From positions 124,001 to 188,000 of the forward strand of contig LIHN01000021.1 of the NCBI GenBank assembly GCA_001314545.1: DNA of 64,000 nucleotides. Reading direction: 5' to 3'. This stretch comes from Bacteroidetes bacterium HLUCCA01. GTDB lineage: Bacteria; Bacteroidota; Rhodothermia; Balneolales; HLUCCA01. Both the position numbers and the translations under genes were made by a program. Shown here in pieces: positions 53,821 to 64,000 of the stretch. The notes below the pieces were generated by a model, which ran no database searches, was not told the DNA's origin, and saw only the letters and a program-made list of their open reading frames with translations. How positions within the stretch are numbered: position 1 is the stretch's first letter; each line of letters begins with the position of its first letter.

Positions 53821-54009
53821 TTAGCTTGCCTGGTCGTTTAGATGCTTTCCAATCGTATCTCTGAACCAATTCCGTCCACGGGCATTGGCGATATCAGACA
53901 ACTCTAAGAACCGGTCCCGGTAGTAGGGCTTAATGCAACTGGTTGTGTAATTTTGTGCCAGTAATCGGGATGTTCCAAGAAAAAACAAGATAGGAGCATG
54001 TGCTATTAA
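53821..54009 (-). pseudogene. Unidentified C-terminal gene fragment downstream of brxL
   Basis: An open stretch with no convincing start reads LGTSRLLAQNYTTSCIKPYY, then RDRFLELSDIANARGRNWFR and GKHLNDQAS before a stop at 53821. The IANARGRNWFRDTI segment resembles the C-terminal lid of CbbX/SpoVK-type AAA ATPases (x-NAR-x-VRN-x-F-E), but the match is weak. It overlaps the end of brxL in another frame. Likely a remnant of an island gene. Confidence 0.35.
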
Positions 54010-56075
54010 CTAGCAGTACCACCTGTACTCCAACGGATGTAGGTAACTTCAAAGGCTTTGCAGGGTCTATATTGCTGCAAGCGATTGGCAAAGGTGAAGG
54101 TGTCGTTCATTTCATAGTGCTGGAAAATATCCAAGCCACGATCCAGGGATATTTTCCAACCGGTATCCGTAACAATGTGGCGAGCATGGATGGTGCCAGC
54201 AGAATCATAACACCACGTGAAGGTAATGCCTACCGCACTGGCAGCTTCTTTCATTTTATCAAGGTTTTCTTTCTGCTGATCCCCTTTAAACTCGTCTTCT
54301 ACGGTGAGTAATTCGACCGTCATTTCCTGGTCGGCCGCTTTGTTCTTGGCCACTGTTTCAAGAAATTCCATAAAATTCCGCATTTGATAGAACAAGCGTA
54401 TATACGGGTCAGTGACTGTAATTTTGGTTGCACCTGTGAGGTATGGACCAAACAGCGTGTCGTAGGTAACACCTCTCTGATTTTCCTGAATGGTCAGATG
54501 TTTCTCTTGAAGCTCCGCAGTAATAGCCACCGGAACCTCAAGTTCCAGTTGTGCAGAGGTTGATGTCGTTGCTTCGTGCTCTTCACCATCATCTCCCGAT
54601 AGAACGACTTTGTTGTAGAAACCCGGATATTCCGTCTCTTCCAGGGTTTTAACCTGTTTGACATTTCCGGTACCATCTTCATAGGTGAAGCGCACTTCGC
54701 CGTAGGTCGTGTCTATTCGCATGAGCTGATCTTTGACCCGTTTACGACCTTCGATTGCGAAACGCAATACTTCTTCTACTTCTTCCTTCGTAGCTCCCCC
54801 ATGCGGAAACAAGATTTTCATCAGTCCGGAGAACGTCTTGTTGATGCCGTCTCTATCGCGTGTTGAAATATCACTCGATAAGGTGAAGTAGTCTTTGTAC
54901 TGATCAGAATAATCCTGATTCCGCATAGACCTGAGAATTTCAGCTAAATAGTCCACCACAAAACCATAGCCCGCAGAGAACATTTCACCACGGATGATAT
55001 CAACCTCCCAACCGGGTATGTAAAAATGAATACGGTCCAAGAATGCAGAGTCATAGAACTTGTCCGGAAGCTCGTAAAACAGGTCCGAGTGTTTGAGCAT
55101 ATAAGGAACCGTGTGCCGGGTATTACCCACAAATACCATAGACGCTTCTGCACCCAGGGTTTCTACCCCACGCGAGAATGTCTTATTGGCCATGTAGTTT
55201 TTCATGATGTCTACCAAAGCCTTATCTACACGTTTCTGCTTTCCGGCAAATTCATCGAAAGCTACACAATCCCAATATCCAACCAACCCGATTTTCCCGG
55301 AGGAGTTGTTCACAAAGAGTTTGGGGACGGTTACTTCACCACCGGATATTAAAATTCCGTGAGGGGAGAACTCGGAATAAATATGGGATTTTCCAGTCCC
55401 CTTCGGCCCCAATTCAATCAGATTGTAATTGCGTTCGCAGTAGGGAATTAGGCGTATTAATTGCGTGAGCTTACTGCGCCGACCGAACAATTCGGGATTA
55501 AATCCAATGCTCTGGATCAACAGGTCAATCCATTCTTCCGTTGTAAACTGCTTGCGCAATTCAAGATAACGCGCAAAGTCGAAATAGGATAATTGTATGG
55601 GCTTTAATGACGATAAAACCCACGGACTAACACCCTTATCTTCCGTAAACTCATACTCCAAATCGGCAATACACCAAACTCCGCCTACCAATAATTTTGG
55701 GTGTTTTTTTACGGTACCCGAGTCCACCAATACTTCTTTGATACCCAGGTTGGAAAACTGAGCCTGATACACATCTTTCTTGTCATTAAGGTCAACACTG
55801 ATTTTATCAATGACCTTGTACCGACCTTTTTCTTTAATATTCGAGCGTACCAGGCCGGCCTCATTCCGGTGTACATAATGTTTCGCCAGAATCTCTTTCA
55901 CCGTCTCTATACCCGTTTGGATGGTTTCCTCGTCACTGGTCGCACAGTATTGACCCAGCAGGTATTCCAACACATACGATGGCACAATCGCATTACCTTT
56001 GACGGTTTTTACCAGATCTTTACGAACTACAAGCCCGGCAAAATGAGTGTTAATTTTTTGATCAAGCTGGTTCAT
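54006..56075 (-). CDS. brxL: BREX protein BrxL (Lon-like AAA+)
   Basis: 689 aa. N-terminal DNA-binding-type region (about 1-150), AAA+ core with Walker A GPKGTGKS (223-230) and Walker B CVAFDEFAG (270-278), sensor region FVGNTRHTVPYMLKHSDLFY, and a C-terminal domain (DPYIRLFYQMRNFMEFLE, TGWKISLDRGLDIFQ). Length and order match BrxL of type I BREX, which blocks phage replication with the other BREX proteins. It is 11 bp after pglZ and ends the operon. Confidence 0.93.
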   Translation of the reverse strand: MNQLDQKINTHFAGLVVRKDLVKTVKGNAIVPSYVLEYLLGQYCATSDEETIQTGIETVKEILAKHYVHRNEAGLVRSNIKEKGRYKVIDKISVDLNDKKDVYQAQFSNLGIKEVLVDSGTVKKHPKLLVGGVWCIADLEYEFTEDKGVSPWVLSSLKPIQLSYFDFARYLELRKQFTTEEWIDLLIQSIGFNPELFGRRSKLTQLIRLIPYCERNYNLIELGPKGTGKSHIYSEFSPHGILISGGEVTVPKLFVNNSSGKIGLVGYWDCVAFDEFAGKQKRVDKALVDIMKNYMANKTFSRGVETLGAEASMVFVGNTRHTVPYMLKHSDLFYELPDKFYDSAFLDRIHFYIPGWEVDIIRGEMFSAGYGFVVDYLAEILRSMRNQDYSDQYKDYFTLSSDISTRDRDGINKTFSGLMKILFPHGGATKEEVEEVLRFAIEGRKRVKDQLMRIDTTYGEVRFTYEDGTGNVKQVKTLEETEYPGFYNKVVLSGDDGEEHEATTSTSAQLELEVPVAITAELQEKHLTIQENQRGVTYDTLFGPYLTGATKITVTDPYIRLFYQMRNFMEFLETVAKNKAADQEMTVELLTVEDEFKGDQQKENLDKMKEAASAVGITFTWCYDSAGTIHARHIVTDTGWKISLDRGLDIFQHYEMNDTFTFANRLQQYRPCKAFEVTYIRWSTGGTAS

Positions 56076-56086
56076 TGGATACTATT

Positions 56087-58585
56087 TTAAAGGTCAAAAT
56101 CACTGGTAAACGAGCGACGTATGGTGTACCTCAACGATTTATACTCTTTGTAGTGGGTAGTGCCGGCATGTTTTTCTTCAAGGCGTAGTATAACTTCACG
56201 ACCATTCGATTCGTCTGCTTTTCTGGACAGAATAAAACGAACTTTTACTTCCCGGTCTCTGGGATTTTCGGATGTGAGGTCAAAATTCACTTCATGGCTG
56301 TCGGATATAAGCTCCTCATTTTCATTGAAAATCCCTGCCCGAAGTTTACGCATTTGTACTTTGTCGGTAGCCGGTGATGTCTGATATAACGTTACAGCAA
56401 ACTGACCCGAAGTAATCACGGTGTTGGCTCCACGAATAATCTCCACGTCAACCATGTTGACGTCACTCAACCGTTTTTTCCGAATCTTAACAACCGGAAT
56501 TACAACTTCCTGCAGTGTAGCACCGCCATGTACAAATCGGCTTCCGGAGCCCTTTAAACGAAGACGATTAATTGATTTTGGGACCTGGATTTCCATGGCA
56601 CCGGACAGCCCCAATTGGGCACTGGTGAAGGAATGCAGACTTGGTTTCTTTTCCAGACCTTTACCCAATATAAACCTTCGATCCCGGTACAGTATCTGGT
56701 CTCCCTCGGCTTCAACACCCGAAAAGTCACTATCATCAATAGCGCGGTTCTGGTAGATGAATCCGTGGTCGGCCGTTACCAAAATGTTGCTGGCATTGGC
56801 ATTGGTGAGCTTTTTTATCAACTTTATTATGTCGCCGAACGATTCCTCAACGGCTTCAAAGACACGTTCTTCGGTCTCTCGTTTATCGCCGGTAGCATCG
56901 ATACGGTTGTGATACACATAAATGACATCATGATCGCGTACAAGTTCGCGACTCTCATCGCCTTTCATCGCCATTAACTCATCGGACTTGCACACTACGG
57001 CCCGACTCCCAAGTAATTGGGCCAATATTTTCTGGCGATTGGTTTTACCCTGTGAGGGCAGTTGGTCTACCAGCACTGTACCCGAGTCGTTGTCAGCGAT
57101 GGTAAGCGTTTGATTTGGGAGTAACGCCGCCATACCCAGCTGGGTGTAGCTGGGAAGCATCGAAAGCATCGGCTCCAGTTCAGCACCGAACTTGTCTTCC
57201 TGACGAACCAGACTTAAAAGTTCTTTTCCAATTTCATAGCGCATCGCGTCTGATATAATCACACACACCTTCACCTGTTGGTCCAGGTAGGGCTGTACCC
57301 AATGTTGAAAGAACTTGTTCTGGCTCACCACAGGCTGAGCGTCCCACGCATCACAGGTATCCACGTACTGCTGAAACTGATCACCCAGTTTGAGCAGGTA
57401 GTTATTTGAATACAGGTTTTCAATCTGATCAGCAAGACTTGCCATCAATGACGCCTGACCCGACATTCGCACGTGATAGGTAAACTTGCGGTAGAGCTGA
57501 TCAATCTGATGCCAGTGCAGGGTATACAATTGTACCCCATCGGTGAAACTTTCCATGGTTAATCGGACTTCGCTGAGCACTTGGATAAATGATGCGGCAT
57601 AATCGATAGCCTCATAGAGATGATCGAAGTCGTCATACCAATACCCCCGCCGACGTTGCCGGATCCATCCTTGTACGTCACCTTGAGAGACGGTCTTGCT
57701 TCCAACCGCCCGCACCAAATCGCTGATAATTTTTTGATCAATCAGCCGGAAATAATCCAATTCAAGCAATTCCCTGAAATCACGCTCAGAAAGATCCTGC
57801 TCAATAGCCAATACTGTAGCACATTCAGCAGACAAACGCTCGAACGATTGCTGATGCCGGCGACTATCTTTCCAGCGTTTCAAAAAAACCAGGGCGTCGC
57901 CAGACAATTTTATATCCCCGTCTGTACCCATGGCGTAGCACGACTTGAACAGCTCGATGCAAAAATCGCGTACACTTGGTTCATCCGATTGGTAGCCATA
58001 CTGTCGGCCCAATTGTTGCCACAGGAAATCATCCAGACGACACCGTTCGATGAGCTTTATCTTTTCATCCCGTTCTTCAGCGAGGTCTTCAAGCAAGTTT
58101 TCCGTTATGGTATCAATACGCGCCTCTGCGGCTGAACAAACGGCCAACATTTTCAGACGCACCAATCCTACGGTGTCATCATTTTTGAGCAGCTTCTTGA
58201 GGTCTTCCCGGCGCTTTGCTGCATGAAAAAACTCGGGATGTTTCTCTACAATCTCTACGAATTCGATTCCCAACTCCAACTCGGAAAGCCAGATAGCGGC
58301 CTGGTCGGTGCGAAACTCACCATGCGCAAGTTGTACATCAAGCAGCCAGTTATCCAGGTCCGCGGGCTGTGGACCCTCATGATACAGCAGAAATTTCTGT
58401 TCCGGTTGCTCACGCAATATCCTATACTTGACACCAAACTGGTTATTGGTAAGTTCCAGTTTCTCGACTTGCTGAAGATCAACGGCGTCAAATTCATTGC
58501 GTAACTCCTGTTTTGCATCATACCAAAGTACGATACGATGCTTCTCAAAGAGTTTTTCAAGAGCTTTTGCCATACGGTCACTCAT
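56087..58585 (-). CDS. pglZ: BREX phosphatase-fold protein PglZ
   Basis: 832 aa. The alkaline-phosphatase-like PglZ core includes VCVIISDAMRYEIGKELL (D446 region), VYHNRIDATGDK and ILVTADHGFIYQNR, the expected metal-ligand blocks. The N-terminal part (KHRIVLWYDAKQELRNEFDA) matches type A PglZ of BREX-1. Essential for BREX methylation and defence in studied systems, though its biochemical substrate is unsettled. The 158-bp gap upstream carries four repeated motifs, suggesting its own promoter. Confidence 0.93.
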   Translation of the reverse strand: MSDRMAKALEKLFEKHRIVLWYDAKQELRNEFDAVDLQQVEKLELTNNQFGVKYRILREQPEQKFLLYHEGPQPADLDNWLLDVQLAHGEFRTDQAAIWLSELELGIEFVEIVEKHPEFFHAAKRREDLKKLLKNDDTVGLVRLKMLAVCSAAEARIDTITENLLEDLAEERDEKIKLIERCRLDDFLWQQLGRQYGYQSDEPSVRDFCIELFKSCYAMGTDGDIKLSGDALVFLKRWKDSRRHQQSFERLSAECATVLAIEQDLSERDFRELLELDYFRLIDQKIISDLVRAVGSKTVSQGDVQGWIRQRRRGYWYDDFDHLYEAIDYAASFIQVLSEVRLTMESFTDGVQLYTLHWHQIDQLYRKFTYHVRMSGQASLMASLADQIENLYSNNYLLKLGDQFQQYVDTCDAWDAQPVVSQNKFFQHWVQPYLDQQVKVCVIISDAMRYEIGKELLSLVRQEDKFGAELEPMLSMLPSYTQLGMAALLPNQTLTIADNDSGTVLVDQLPSQGKTNRQKILAQLLGSRAVVCKSDELMAMKGDESRELVRDHDVIYVYHNRIDATGDKRETEERVFEAVEESFGDIIKLIKKLTNANASNILVTADHGFIYQNRAIDDSDFSGVEAEGDQILYRDRRFILGKGLEKKPSLHSFTSAQLGLSGAMEIQVPKSINRLRLKGSGSRFVHGGATLQEVVIPVVKIRKKRLSDVNMVDVEIIRGANTVITSGQFAVTLYQTSPATDKVQMRKLRAGIFNENEELISDSHEVNFDLTSENPRDREVKVRFILSRKADESNGREVILRLEEKHAGTTHYKEYKSLRYTIRRSFTSDFDL

Positions 58586-58743: not shown

Positions 58744-60417
58744 TTACCCCACAAGTTGCCAGACAGGACTTTTTTTTGAGCCCTTATTGACAATAGTACC
58801 CCGTCGCCTAAGTTTGGTTAGTATATTTGCAACCTTATTCGACTTTTGAGCAGCATCCAAGGCATCGCTTAATTTTTTTTCCAAGAGTTTATCAATTTCC
58901 GAACGGGAAGCTTGACCAAACTCTTTCAGATAATCGGTTATTAGCTTGCAGTAATAATCGTCGTCCTGAGCACGCATTTTGATATAATCCGCTTTGCTCG
59001 CAGTTACCTTGGCAACGGAAGCGGACACATGGAAATTGGGTTTTCTACCCTCAATTAAACCATCACGTCGTAATTTCTTTATTACATCATCATTGAGCGG
59101 CAGTCGTTTTTGGACGCGATCCAATGCCAATATCTTTTCCAAAGACAAATCTGTTTTCTGAATGAGAAGACGGCTGTAAGCCGGATCGACCAAACCGCCA
59201 TAGACCGTCATTTTCACAGAATATGGGTCACTCAAATCATAGTCTGGCATAGGCAAGTAGCGCTGTGCCTGTCCCTTGTGAATCGTGTGGATGCCGTAAC
59301 CCATGGTATCAATCATATTAAGCTCGACCATAGCTTGCGCAAGAAATGGGTTACGGTAACGTCGAGGCGTTAATTCACCTGTCATGTAGTCTTCTGGACG
59401 ACCCTCAAAAAATGCTCCTTCATTCTCAAAAATTAAACGGTCGGGGGTTTCTGTAACAACTATTCTGCCGTTTCGGGAGTAGTCTTGATGAGCAATGCAA
59501 TTATGTAGGGCTTCAAGTACAATACGTTGGTCATATTTTGAAACCTCGACCGGCAGTAACTGATCATCCGGCAGCAATCGTAACTGAATATTTCGAATCT
59601 TCCGATATAGTTCCGAGGTGTTTAGCAAAAATGGGGGACCGAAATGTTCGTACGCTTTTTCTGGCCCCTCCAACTTCCAGGTTATTTGTGCCGGATATGG
59701 GCTCAAGAAATATGAAGACTCCGGCTTACCCAACAAGAGTAATGATGTACGGGTTAACTTTCCATCAAAGGTGAGTTTGGCTCGATCAAGAAAAGTCTCC
59801 AAAGGCCATTGCATTACCTCTTCAGGATTCAATCGATTCGAATGCTTTTTGGCAAAGAACTCACGTGCCTTTAGTAATGCTTTTTCGTCAAGATTGGAGG
59901 TTGTTGCCTCGGCTACAATTTGAGCCGACCAATCCAGTAAACGCGTTTGCTGGCGAATTTCATCCTGTTTGTCTAAGCCGAGACTGGTTAGGCTTTCTCC
60001 AGCACGGGCGTAATAATGTCCTTTCCATGCAATAGGCATGCCTCGAGGAGCCGGGGGGATTTCGAACAAAATTACTCTACCCTCACTCAATATTAGCTCA
60101 TGAATATTGCGAAATGTGATACTTGGTTCTGTATTCTCGGCAATCTGCATTTTAGTACTCTGTAGCCGTTCATGATTCTCCCTGTAATCACTACCAATCA
60201 CATCCCTTTTCTTGTTATCAACACCAAAAACCAGCCAGGCTTTTTCCATATTTCGCAAATTTGCTTCATTGGATAGGGCAGAAAAGTACTCGCCAATTTT
60301 ATCTGTGGAATAATCTTTACCAGCCTGTTTGAATTCCACAATCTCATTTTCCCAATCTGTAATTAAATCGGTTAATAGGGAGTGCAGCTCTTTATCTATA
60401 CGATTCTTTTCGCCCAT
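58744..60417 (-). CDS. AlbA/Schlafen-domain ATP-binding protein with C-terminal winged helix, within the BREX operon
   Basis: 557 aa. AlbA_2-type domain about 22-130 (ENEIVEFKQAGKD, NMEKAWLVFGVDN, GHYYARAGESL), then a GHKL ATPase-like domain (IVLEALHNCIAHQDYS; DRLIFENEG; NPFLAQAMVELNMIDTMGYG) and C-terminal winged-helix segments (LNDDVIKKLRRDGLIEGRKP). This architecture is annotated as transcriptional regulator or RecG-like ATPase. Its ATG overlaps the pglX stop by one base (TGATG), so it is made with pglX. AT-richer than pglX. It may regulate the island or add a defence function. Confidence 0.82.
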   Translation of the reverse strand: MGEKNRIDKELHSLLTDLITDWENEIVEFKQAGKDYSTDKIGEYFSALSNEANLRNMEKAWLVFGVDNKKRDVIGSDYRENHERLQSTKMQIAENTEPSITFRNIHELILSEGRVILFEIPPAPRGMPIAWKGHYYARAGESLTSLGLDKQDEIRQQTRLLDWSAQIVAEATTSNLDEKALLKAREFFAKKHSNRLNPEEVMQWPLETFLDRAKLTFDGKLTRTSLLLLGKPESSYFLSPYPAQITWKLEGPEKAYEHFGPPFLLNTSELYRKIRNIQLRLLPDDQLLPVEVSKYDQRIVLEALHNCIAHQDYSRNGRIVVTETPDRLIFENEGAFFEGRPEDYMTGELTPRRYRNPFLAQAMVELNMIDTMGYGIHTIHKGQAQRYLPMPDYDLSDPYSVKMTVYGGLVDPAYSRLLIQKTDLSLEKILALDRVQKRLPLNDDVIKKLRRDGLIEGRKPNFHVSASVAKVTASKADYIKMRAQDDDYYCKLITDYLKEFGQASRSEIDKLLEKKLSDALDAAQKSNKVANILTKLRRRGTIVNKGSKKSPVWQLVG

Positions 60418-63400
60418 CAGTCCTCCCTGGCCTCCAAGCCCGGTATCTTCTTCAAGGCCGCGCCGAGTTTGGGGTAGTTGACCTTCACACCGTCGTCGAG
60501 GTCGATCTCCACCTGCTCGGTGGCAAGCGGGTACAGCACCTCGCGCTCGTACTCTTCCAACTCGGAAATCATCTTGGTGATCTTCTCGATCTCCTTCAGG
60601 GCCTTAGTCTTCTCGCCCTGGCTGCTGCTGGCGCTGATGCTGACCGCCTCCAGGTGATTCTTGTGCGAGGTGAGCTTGGTGCGGAACTCGCGCAGATAGT
60701 CGTTAAGCACCACGCTGACCGTATCCGGGCGGTAACGGTGTATGTAGATCAGCGCATTGAAGCTGCCCTTGGGGCTGGAGAACAGCCAGTAGATGGGGCG
60801 CTTCTTGTAGCGCTTCACATGGTCGGTGTAGAACTCGCCGAGGAAGTAGTCGCGGATGCCGTAGTTGCGCTTGCCCTTGATGTTCAGCCCCTGTTCGACG
60901 AACCGGAGGTTTTCCTCGTAGTGCTCCTCGCCAAAGGCCACGCGCAGGAACTTGCGGAAGCGCTCGGCGATGTCGTCGGTGAACCAGTCTCCGTCGAGCA
61001 TGGGGATGACGTTGTCGTCATCGGCCGGAAAACTCGGCTCCGGGACCTGCTTCAGGTAGTCCTCGATGGTCTCGCCCTGGTTGGCCAGGATCAGCCCCGG
61101 CTTGTCCAGCGCATAGCGGCCAAACATGCAGCCCACGGCATAGGAGACCAGCTCGCGCATGGTGTCGGCCAGCAGCAGTGCCTCCAGCTCGTCCTCGCTC
61201 TTGTCGTTGCCGTAGCGGTAGTGCGGGTTGCAGGTCAGGGTGATCTCGTTGAGCGGCACCTCGGGAGTCAGCTCATCCTGCAGGCCGTATGCCTCGATGA
61301 AGATCCGGTTGTTCTCTTCCTCCAGCCGCTGCATCTCCAGCGTCATCTCGCTCCAGTGGGAACGGAGCTTCTGGTAGGTGGCCTTTAAGCTTGGCTGGTG
61401 GTAGTCGGGATTCAGCAGCGGCAGGCTGGTGAAGTCCCAAGATGTTTCGTAAGAGTCCCAATCTGCTTTTGCCAAATACACGTTTTTCTTTGTACGGCCT
61501 GAAAGTTCAGGGTCGTCAACCTGCTTTAATGGCAAGCTAAGCACATGCGATAATTTGAAATCCAGGGTTGGCGCTAGCATTCGCAGGAAACTACTCGATA
61601 CCTTGCTGTTCAGAAATGCTTCAATTACTTCACAAGAAACAGAGCTGTTTACAAACCCCATCGGGCCTTTGGCATCGAACATGAAGCCGACCGGAACATC
61701 TCTAACAGCAAAGTCATTGCTGGAAATGCCAGACCAAGTAAACCCTGCTCTAAACCCATAGATACCATTGTAGTTATGGGACCTGATCCGCCCTGTTTTT
61801 TCATCTTTGAAATTCTTTAGTTCGACTCCATCATCAAACCAATTAACAAAGTGTTCAAAGTTTCCATACCATCGGCGTGATCCACCACCCTTCACATAAG
61901 GAAACCACCTTTTTTTCGACTCTTGAGCTGAAGCTTCGTTGGCCATTCCATATGCCACTTCGCTCTGAGATACTTCGTGCCATTCACGAAGAAATAGAGC
62001 ATTGCTGCCAGTTGTGAGTCCCTCACGCGTCACAATATATTCAGAGATGGTGGGGTAATTATGAAATGCTAAACGGACTTGTTCTGAGGCCCAAAAAACT
62101 AGAGGTTGCCCGGGGATTATTAGAAAATCATCGTCGCTAGCAGAGAATCTAATGTCGCTTTTAGGATTTTTGGCGGCACTTAATAGAGCCCGGTTCTTCT
62201 CGTCTTCATTTTTCCCTTCAGTTAATCTTATAAATTGGCCTTTTAGGCTTGGGTTTCGATTATTTGACAGAACAAACGCAGTCGTTGAAACAACCTCTCC
62301 ACCGATAGAGTCAAATGCCCTTTCACCTAATTGCGCCATAGAAAGGATGCTGCAATTAGTCAGGATGTTAGAACGGATCGCCTCGTACCTTGGTGCGAAC
62401 ATCCAGCCTTGCATCGTGATCATCGCTACATACCCATCACCAACGGCAAGTTTGGCGTTTCGGAGGATAAAGGCTTGGTATAAGTCGTACTTGCCGTCAA
62501 CGAAACTGTTTTCAAGCCAAGCTTGAAGATTGTCATTTAAATCCGCCTTTTTCTTATACGGCGGATTGGCAATCACTACATGGTATTTCGGGCTCAGGTA
62601 ATCGGCCTGCCGCAGGGCCTGTAGCACCTTCTGATGGGTCATGCTGATAAACATCTGCCCGGAGACGTTTTTTGATTCCAGAATCCTGAGCATGCCGTCC
62701 ACGTCGGTGACATCCGGCTGGATCAGGGACCCGAAGTTGTCGGCCTCTTCGAACTGGCGCAGGGTGGTTTGCAGTGGCGCGGTGAACAGGTCGCGCCCGA
62801 CAAAATCCATGTAATCCTTCAACTCATTGCCGTCGAAGTGGACGTTCTCCAGCACGCAGATGTTCGGCTTGACGCCCTTGTTGAAGAACCGGCGCTGCTT
62901 TGCGCGGGCCTTCATGGTGAGGGCAAAGGCCGCCAGCTCCCCGGCGCGTTCGTCTATCTCGATACCGTAGAGATTGTTCGTGAGGATCTTCTCCGGGATC
63001 TCGGCAGGCTCGTAGCCCTCCTCCTCGTAGATGGCATAGAGCAGGTCAAAGGCATAGGTGAGCATGTGGCCGGAGCCGCAGGCCGGGTCGCAAATCTTGA
63101 TCTCTTCCGGCTTGGCGATGCGCAGAAAGTCCGATTCGGCCTGTTCGGGCTTGATGTAGTAATCCATTCGCTCAACCAGCTTTGAGCCAGGGCGGTTGAG
63201 CAGCCACAGACGGCCGAGGGAGTTTTCCACCAGGTAACGGACGATCCAGTGCGGGGTGAAGAGCTGGGTGGCGGCGGGAATGTTCTCGGGCGTGATCTTC
63301 TTGTTCTTCTTCAGGCCGTCGAACACCTCGTCCTTCTTCTCGGAGATGTAGAACTGGTAGAGCCAGCCGATCACCTCGACATCCTCGCAGGCATCCGGTG

Positions 63401-63959
63401 TCATCGCCTCGCGGGTATAGGCAAGGATGGAGTTGCCCGAGAGCAGATCGTCGGGCATCAGCAGTTCGGTGTAGTCGTCGATGCGCTGGAACAGGAACGG
63501 CATGGCCTTGTTCCAGTAGTTGCAGGCGGCCACCACCAACAGGCGGTAGGCCTCGCCCTGCGGGTCGCGACTGGGCGCTTTGCCATCGAGCAGTGCGAAG
63601 ATCTGCTGACGGACCTTGTCGTGGACCATCTCTTCATCGATGTGGCCCATCTTGGCCTCGGCCAGAATCTCAGGCTGGAACTGTCCCTCTGAGGGCGACA
63701 CCACGCCGATGCGGGTGTAGCGGTTCACGTCCATGAAGCGCAGGGCGCAGAAGCGGTTGAACCAGATGTAGGCCACCCGTTCGATGACCTGTTCCTTGCC
63801 GTGCCCCTTGATCGCCTCTTCGAGCTTTTTGACGGCCTCGGCACGTTCACGCCGGGCGGCGCTGTTATCTGCGAGCACCAGCTTCAGTTTGGCAGAGACC
63901 TGCTCCAGCAAGCTGCGCCGGGCGAACTGGGCGAATTTTTTTAGTTTTGCTGTTTCCAT
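60417..63959 (-). CDS. pglX: BREX-1 adenine-specific DNA methyltransferase PglX (mosaic gene)
   Basis: 1180 aa. SAM-binding motif DPACGSGH at 290-297 and catalytic NPPY at 465-468; helical N-terminus and C-terminal helical domain as in BREX-1 PglX. It methylates adenine in the BREX site to mark self DNA and is needed for restriction. A Shine-Dalgarno GGAGGA lies 10 bp upstream, unusual here. The parts 60420-61430 and 62560-63959 are GC-rich with proteobacterial-looking codon choice; the middle, residues about 471-840, including the target-recognition region, is distinctly AT-richer. Confidence 0.93.
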   Translation of the reverse strand: METAKLKKFAQFARRSLLEQVSAKLKLVLADNSAARRERAEAVKKLEEAIKGHGKEQVIERVAYIWFNRFCALRFMDVNRYTRIGVVSPSEGQFQPEILAEAKMGHIDEEMVHDKVRQQIFALLDGKAPSRDPQGEAYRLLVVAACNYWNKAMPFLFQRIDDYTELLMPDDLLSGNSILAYTREAMTPDACEDVEVIGWLYQFYISEKKDEVFDGLKKNKKITPENIPAATQLFTPHWIVRYLVENSLGRLWLLNRPGSKLVERMDYYIKPEQAESDFLRIAKPEEIKICDPACGSGHMLTYAFDLLYAIYEEEGYEPAEIPEKILTNNLYGIEIDERAGELAAFALTMKARAKQRRFFNKGVKPNICVLENVHFDGNELKDYMDFVGRDLFTAPLQTTLRQFEEADNFGSLIQPDVTDVDGMLRILESKNVSGQMFISMTHQKVLQALRQADYLSPKYHVVIANPPYKKKADLNDNLQAWLENSFVDGKYDLYQAFILRNAKLAVGDGYVAMITMQGWMFAPRYEAIRSNILTNCSILSMAQLGERAFDSIGGEVVSTTAFVLSNNRNPSLKGQFIRLTEGKNEDEKNRALLSAAKNPKSDIRFSASDDDFLIIPGQPLVFWASEQVRLAFHNYPTISEYIVTREGLTTGSNALFLREWHEVSQSEVAYGMANEASAQESKKRWFPYVKGGGSRRWYGNFEHFVNWFDDGVELKNFKDEKTGRIRSHNYNGIYGFRAGFTWSGISSNDFAVRDVPVGFMFDAKGPMGFVNSSVSCEVIEAFLNSKVSSSFLRMLAPTLDFKLSHVLSLPLKQVDDPELSGRTKKNVYLAKADWDSYETSWDFTSLPLLNPDYHQPSLKATYQKLRSHWSEMTLEMQRLEEENNRIFIEAYGLQDELTPEVPLNEITLTCNPHYRYGNDKSEDELEALLLADTMRELVSYAVGCMFGRYALDKPGLILANQGETIEDYLKQVPEPSFPADDDNVIPMLDGDWFTDDIAERFRKFLRVAFGEEHYEENLRFVEQGLNIKGKRNYGIRDYFLGEFYTDHVKRYKKRPIYWLFSSPKGSFNALIYIHRYRPDTVSVVLNDYLREFRTKLTSHKNHLEAVSISASSSQGEKTKALKEIEKITKMISELEEYEREVLYPLATEQVEIDLDDGVKVNYPKLGAALKKIPGLEARED

Positions 63960-64000
63960 CTATTTAGGCTCCTCCGGGGCTGCAACGGCCAGGCGGGTTA
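63960..64000 (-). CDS. C-terminal end of the upstream BREX gene (probably brxC)
   Basis: The frame reads TRLAVAAPEEPK and stops at TAG (63962-63960), immediately followed by the pglX ATG at 63959. In type I BREX loci brxC precedes pglX, so this is probably its tail; too short to identify by itself. Its codons contain the GGAGGA that serves pglX. Confidence 0.5.
   Translation of the reverse strand, partial: TRLAVAAPEEPK

Follow-up and report, generated by a model that had tools for sequence, protein, structure and literature searches.

Conserved ends around an exchangeable, AT-rich middle in the BREX methylase gene pglX of Bacteroidetes bacterium HLUCCA01

Here we describe pglX, the methylase gene of a complete type 1 BREX (bacteriophage exclusion) operon in Bacteroidetes bacterium HLUCCA01, found at the end of a window of 64,000 nucleotides (nt; positions 124,001 to 188,000 of contig LIHN01000021.1, assembly GCA_001314545.1). 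Coordinates are those of the window, and all features named lie on its minus strand. PglX proteins of type 1 BREX systems methylate a non-palindromic 6-bp motif and confer phage exclusion. Our comparison with relatives makes it highly probable that this pglX (60417–63959, 1180 residues) consists of two conserved ends, inherited together, with a replaceable middle between them (codons ~458–842), and that the whole gene was imported into its present operon.

The GC content of the window drops from about 0.60 to 0.43–0.47 within pglX and then recovers. At third codon positions, the GC content (GC3) is about 0.85 over codons 1–440, 0.33–0.60 over codons 481–840 and 0.86–0.93 over codons 841–1180. 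A two-changepoint fit places the steps at codons 458 and 842 (62588 and about 61434), close to the abrupt changes that a first-pass annotation of the sequence had placed near 62550 and 61435, and removes 52 sum-of-squares units, about 12 times the maximum of 4.3 among 20 shuffles of the codon order. The fit delimits a conserved N-terminal flank (N; codons 1–457, 62589–63959, GC3 0.83), which comprises the N-terminal helical domain and the front half of the methylase; an exchanged middle segment (M; codons 458–842, 61434–62588, GC3 0.40), unrelated in most relatives; and a conserved C-terminal flank (C; codons 843–1180, 60420–61433, GC3 0.90), which comprises most of the spacer helices and the C-terminal domain. 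Because GC3 is about 0.64 in host genes of the window and 0.39–0.50 in the other genes of the BREX operon, the GC-rich flanks are as conspicuous within the AT-rich operon as the middle is within the gene.

The domain map was drawn on solved structures. PADLOC identifies PglX over residues 1–1175 (E=0), and near full-length homology connects the protein to the PglX/BrxX chains 8c45 (Salmonella; E=8.9e-231), 8zek and 9ewz (both E. coli), with which it also shares the operon partners brxA, brxB, brxC, pglZ and brxL. The catalytic NPPY motif of S-adenosylmethionine-dependent N6-adenine methylases (codons 465–468, 62556–62567) aligns with the NPPY of 8c45 and marks the left border of the exchanged segment. 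Alignment to 8c45 with the published borders (PMC11341690) assigns codons ~470–623 (62091–62552, hereafter M1) to the rear half of the methylase fold, codons ~624–811 (61527–62090; residues 662–849 of 8c45) to the target-recognition domain (TRD), and codons ~812–924 to the spacer helices. The exchanged segment hence contains the TRD, as the first-pass annotation had supposed, and starts about 155 residues ahead of it, within the methylase fold. M1 carries a loop equivalent to Salmonella residues 591–600, which are among the regions targeted for motif alteration (PMC11341690).

A genome scan gave 80 loci, many of them in metagenome-assembled genomes (MAGs); the alignment built on these comprises 67 full-length pglX genes, that of the window among them. 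Pairwise identity in N follows that in C (rho 0.88) and is uncorrelated with that in M (rho −0.02); among the 47 pairs with N at least 93% identical, 43 have M below 50%. In approximately unbiased (AU) tests based on fast IQ-TREE searches, the tree of each segment was rejected on the data of the other segments, and the N and M trees have 1 of 60 splits in common, compared with 8 of 60 for N and C. Against five relatives, DNA homology of the window pglX ends at nt 1405–1409 of the gene, just after the NPPY codons, and restarts at nt 2485–2497. Acinetobacter plasmids carry N flanks of 94–98% identity together with middles of 33–62%, and in E. coli one N flank, through which that set was found, occurs in 54 of 5426 genomes and its middle in just 1. 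The reciprocal arrangement is also observed: L021 and L068 are 94% identical in M and 83% in N and C, and L002 and L014 carry alike middles between more divergent ends. Middles also cross phyla, those of Nitrosomonas L006 and Oligosphaera L043 being 97% identical. Differing genealogies and alike segments between divergent flanks together point to specificity exchange by HsdS-like recombination, and the comparison shows exchanges of the middle frequent enough to have made relatedness there independent of that of the ends. The description of PglX as a recombinant is thereby borne out, and separate phylogenies, which had been proposed as a check on it, give no tree common to the three segments.

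Exchange also takes place within the middle. N flanks are 97–100% identical among one E. fergusonii gene and seven E. coli genes, the plasmid query gene being one of the latter, and in this set M1 can reach 98–100% identity while the TRD is 42% identical. Clustering of the 67 genes at 60% identity yields 52 clusters for the TRD, 24 for M1 and 3 for N. Identities of M1 and the TRD are uncorrelated (−0.07), and many pairs are common in M1 but not in the TRD, while none, at the thresholds used, is common in the TRD but not in M1. On this evidence the rear methylase half and the recognition domain exchange separately. The swapping of specificity proposed in the first-pass annotation is thus supported, but its unit is not the recognition domain only, since the rear methylase half is taken along as well.

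In five loci, all MAGs (L070, L073, L075, L077 and L079), PglX is encoded by two open reading frames (ORFs; the first of 597–628 and the second of 589–639 residues) with the break near the hinge between methylase and TRD, and nested between the two are genes of other defences (SIR2 and HerA, Shedu, a reverse transcriptase, Schlafen or Fic-like). In L075, L077 and L079 genes overlap by 4 nt, which speaks against an error of assembly, and PADLOC already includes half-length PglX models.

The latest event in the window's own gene is of a different kind. The first-pass annotation had described the gene as recombinant by its middle; such exchange is seen in the family, while here the whole gene entered a diverged operon. 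In comparison with the Desulforhopalus locus L001, the DNA that runs from 156 nt ahead of pglX through its stop codon is 92.4% identical, and the aligned operon DNA on either side is 69–71% identical; likewise, PglX is 94% identical, BrxC and PglZ are 72% and BrxA is 58% identical. The imported block covers 60456–64000 and continues past the window to ~200–250 nt upstream of the pglX start. Read along the operon, the left edge of the import is close to the 3′ end of brxC, beyond the window, where identity rises from ~0.7 to 0.97, and the right edge, which is approximate, lies in the final codons of pglX. The L001 gene has the window's middle at 96% identity together with the flanks, so that this middle is older than the split of the two genes. 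The alignment thus shows that the whole pglX, its present middle included, was swapped as a cassette into an AT-rich BREX operon that had diverged.

Near-identical, GC-rich BREX operons (BrxC 94–99% identical) with different pglX middles are present in L001, L002, L005, L043 and L060, the hosts being Desulforhopalus, Halothiobacillus, Desulfobulbus, Oligosphaera and a Phycisphaerae MAG. L001, L002 and L005 are 97–99% identical in BrxC and PglZ and represent a GC-rich island, in which the pglX middle of L001 is unlike those of the other two. In Desulforhopalus, GC3 is 0.44 in host core genes, compared with 0.78 in the BREX operon. N flanks that match the window's at 93% identity or more are present in Desulforhopalus, Halothiobacillus, Oligosphaera and a Phycisphaerae MAG, so that the label "proteobacterial" that had been given to the flanks is not usable. 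The GGAGGA ribosome site noted with them is real; it sits in the end of a 66-residue scar ORF, whose 3′ part occupies 63960–64000 and which starts upstream of the window (L082:3961-4161 in the coordinates of locus L082), and the same sequence is found in the Desulforhopalus copy. In the scar ORF, the beginning of a HEC-02A-like ATPase gene runs into the final part of its HEC-02B-like partner, and the two meet where they are briefly similar (CTGAAACAGGAGCT versus CTGACACTGGAGCT); therefore, this pair was probably deleted within the imported block.

The low GC3 of the middle recurs throughout the family. Mean GC3 over the 67 genes is 0.69 in N, 0.40 in M and 0.72 in C; it is higher in N than in M in every one of the 67 (Wilcoxon 1e-12). 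For 65 of the 67, the best two-step fit takes the form of a dip, and the medians of the borders fall at codons 463 and 842. The dip is also found in E. coli pglX genes, and in those of six Acinetobacter plasmids, enterobacterial plasmids, Rhodococcus, Sinorhizobium and Synechocystis (M 0.16–0.57, flanks 0.39–0.76), the middles of the low-GC Acinetobacter being lower still (0.16–0.24). Compared with host core genes, the middle has lower GC3 in 30 of 31 genomes (mean difference 0.22), while the mean GC3 of the pglX flanks and of the BREX operon is equal to or slightly over the host core level. A similar depression is seen in type I HsdS recognition domains, sampled at 20 loci in genomes of the window's class, with hsdM recognised by motif and position only: their GC3 lies under that of hsdM in 17 of 17 loci with hsdM (mean 0.22) and under that of local genes in 20 of 20 (mean 0.13). 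The analogy to hsdS drawn in the first-pass annotation accordingly extends from swapping to low GC3. Since the dip recurs in unrelated restriction enzymes as well as in each of the 67 pglX genes, it marks a shared swapping process and not an accident of a single genome.

Three simple causes of the dip were tried and rejected. The first is amino-acid content, which had been set out in advance as able to overturn the compositional argument: family-wide, the GARP and FYMINK fractions are 0.24 and 0.27 in N and 0.24 and 0.30 in M, and because these are nearly equal the change is synonymous, resting in third positions. The second is low conservation or hypervariability. Within regions, GC3 is nearly flat across conservation bins; poorly conserved stretches of brxC hold a GC3 of ~0.5–0.6, those of pglZ show no dip either, and at the least conserved sites of brxL the drop is small (0.53 versus 0.64), far below that of pglX. 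One M1 class is more conserved than its own N flank (0.81 versus 0.74), yet its GC3 is 0.43 versus 0.68. Moreover, the dip extends by ~10 codons into conserved sequence on each side, the steps in GC3 lying at codons 458 and 843 and those in conservation at codons 471 and 833, as expected if the composition belongs to the exchanged DNA and not to protein variability. The third is the fading signature of a donor: in L022 and L036, for example, fourfold degenerate sites of the middle are saturated (0.78 versus 0.75 expected), and the GC content at these sites (GC4) is still 0.49–0.57 in the middle versus 0.80–0.87 in the ends, so that the dip is maintained.

We propose the following model, in which function is taken from the published PglX/BrxX structures. 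PglX would act as both methylase and sequence-reader of the type 1 BREX operon, and its middle, from NPPY to the start of the spacer helices, would set the sequence that is methylated and policed. Incoming and resident BREX loci may exchange by ordinary homologous recombination with crossovers in the conserved ends, and one such step would hand the host a new methylation specificity. With less certainty, alleles of the middle may be too different to recombine and so escape the GC-raising effect of homologous recombination; the middle would then stay near the AT-biased mutational balance, like accessory DNA within a gene. In 11 of 14 groups, Lassalle et al. (2015, PMC4450053) found recombining core genes to be richer in GC, and GC-biased gene conversion as treated there predicts higher GC3 where homologous recombination is frequent. 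Their contrast is between whole core genes; in pglX it lies within one gene. We attribute the AT-rich silent sites of the middle to a lack of homologous recombination and GC-biased gene conversion only tentatively, as an account that may well be wrong. More tentative again is the generalisation to exchangeable specificity cassettes at large, such as the PglX middle and HsdS recognition domains: lowered GC at silent sites would be a signature that they maintain, their alleles being too divergent to undergo such conversion.

Several points weigh against this account. The pglX flanks are just slightly above host core GC3, and the low GC3 of the exchanged segment, independent of conservation, fits the account but may also be due to selection. 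The N and C trees differ too, with the 8 of 60 common splits given above, so that the ends are not a single clean block; the conserved ends evidently also recombine somewhat. No donor–recipient pair with exact crossovers was caught for the window's own middle. Finally, relatives were found partly by flank peptides (several of the six search peptides came from the conserved ends), which favours conserved flanks in the sample.

Among alternative causes of the low GC3, the one that survives best is that the middles belong to an ever-moving AT-rich pool of plasmids, phages and AT-rich hosts, with no time to ameliorate. Accessory DNA is generally AT-rich. In keeping with such a pool, GC3 of M tracks host core GC3 weakly (slope 0.29), and middles are common to different phyla, as in L006 and L043. 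However, the flanks track the host weakly as well (slopes 0.26 and 0.14) yet are not AT-rich; the middle and flanks of L022 and L036 seem to have co-diverged (0.72–0.75 in all three segments) with middle GC4 still low; and the level of M varies by host group from 0.16 to 0.76, unlike one pool. We regard a moving pool as rather unlikely. One scan of viral contigs found no viral relative of the middle. Selection on codons or mRNA, in which AT-ending codons are needed for slow translation or weak mRNA structure during inter-domain folding, is improbable, although a functional demand is conceivable for a dip that is maintained and common to HsdS recognition domains. The low GC3 begins at the exchange border near NPPY instead of the TRD border and spans the rear methylase half, the highly conserved codons 460–469 fall within it, and the 0.16–0.76 range of the middle is hard to fit to a fixed codon need. 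Loss of GC-biased gene conversion is tentatively favoured over codon selection as the cause.

The remaining alternatives concern the exchange itself. A single recent import of an AT-rich donor's recognition segment into a GC-rich proteobacterial pglX in this genome would account for the abrupt steps at both borders, and mosaicism is real; such an event is nonetheless very improbable, as the dip occurs in all 67 genes with mostly unrelated middles, GC4 is low even where the fourfold sites of the middle are saturated, the middle shared with L001 predates the gene split, and the Acinetobacter values imply no one donor composition. The AT-rich middle is thus not the mark of one foreign insert that it had first been taken for. 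Still less probable is site-specific phase variation, with the middle inverted or replaced out of silent cassettes of the same genome. In some BREX clusters, pglX is reported to be duplicated or phase-variable (cited in PMC11842806), but a whole-genome search returned a single pglX match and neither a further copy nor a silent cassette, no strong repeats, inverted or direct, were found at the borders, and the sole integrase noted is ~14 kb off; pglX here thus lacks the silent cassettes, or the inverted repeats with a recombinase, of a phase-variable locus. Least credible is a middle made hypervariable without exchange, by point mutation under relaxed or diversifying selection, because the near-identical middles of L021/L068 and L002/L014 within more divergent ends, and common M1 segments next to unrelated TRDs with abrupt identity steps, need recombination, and the poorly conserved parts of brxC lack a dip of such size.

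The exchange described here can be set beside known systems. The TRD has been described as the most variable part of PglX (PMC11842806), and the work searched on BREX PglX deals with variability and single-residue retargeting; here we find an exchange cassette that starts at NPPY, has two separately shuffled parts and bears a GC3 signature. Recognition-domain swapping and domain movement in HsdS (PMC3077401, PMC3983042) likewise exchange a recognition segment between conserved parts, with the same GC3 depression, but HsdS is a separate subunit with two TRDs, whereas the PglX cassette is part of the methylase chain itself and brings half of the catalytic fold with it. PglX also resembles Type IIL/MmeI-like enzymes in structure (PMC11341690), a single chain in which the TRD comes after a gamma-class methylase; Pfam matches on PglX are to methylase families only, MmeI_Mtase among them. 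Unlike those enzymes, it acts with BREX partners, and no nuclease-domain family was matched in Pfam, such as the fused N-terminal nuclease of Type IIL/IIG enzymes. Searched by title and abstract, the open-access literature on recombination or GC content of PglX, and on GC content of HsdS, yielded no description of this pattern.

Around pglX, the operon continues with a protein of Schlafen AlbA_2 and HATPase_c_4 domains (58744–60417; Pfam), pglZ (56087–58585, GC3 0.50) and brxL (54006–56075, GC3 0.49), while brxC, brxB and brxA lie outside the window, past its end. The slot between pglX and pglZ that holds the Schlafen/HATPase gene here is empty or has other content in relatives; in Acinetobacter plasmids with similar flanking genes it holds a DUF262 gene, a hypothetical gene or nothing. 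Upstream of brxA (L082:9242-13755) are a 492-residue protein of no recognised family and a 1012-residue DrmD/BrxHI-like helicase, and further upstream (L082:14970-19550) a DnaB-like helicase gene and a phage-type integrase gene (L082:18228-19550), which perhaps mark the edge of a mobile island. Consistent with such an island, no PglX match was found in four genomes of the same genus and family.

These results indicate that BREX may change its target by swapping a defined cassette, half of the catalytic domain included, and the shared borders could guide functional tests. They also carry a warning: an AT-rich island in a specificity gene gives, on its own, no evidence for a single recent foreign insert. 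If the silent-site depression is indeed a general signature, swappable cassettes could be found from sequence alone, and one gene with one mRNA would hold recombining and non-recombining compartments, an internal control for bacterial GC above mutation bias. Should the cause suggested for the GC3 dip be right, the pglX family would provide an internal test of gene conversion versus selection in bacterial base composition.
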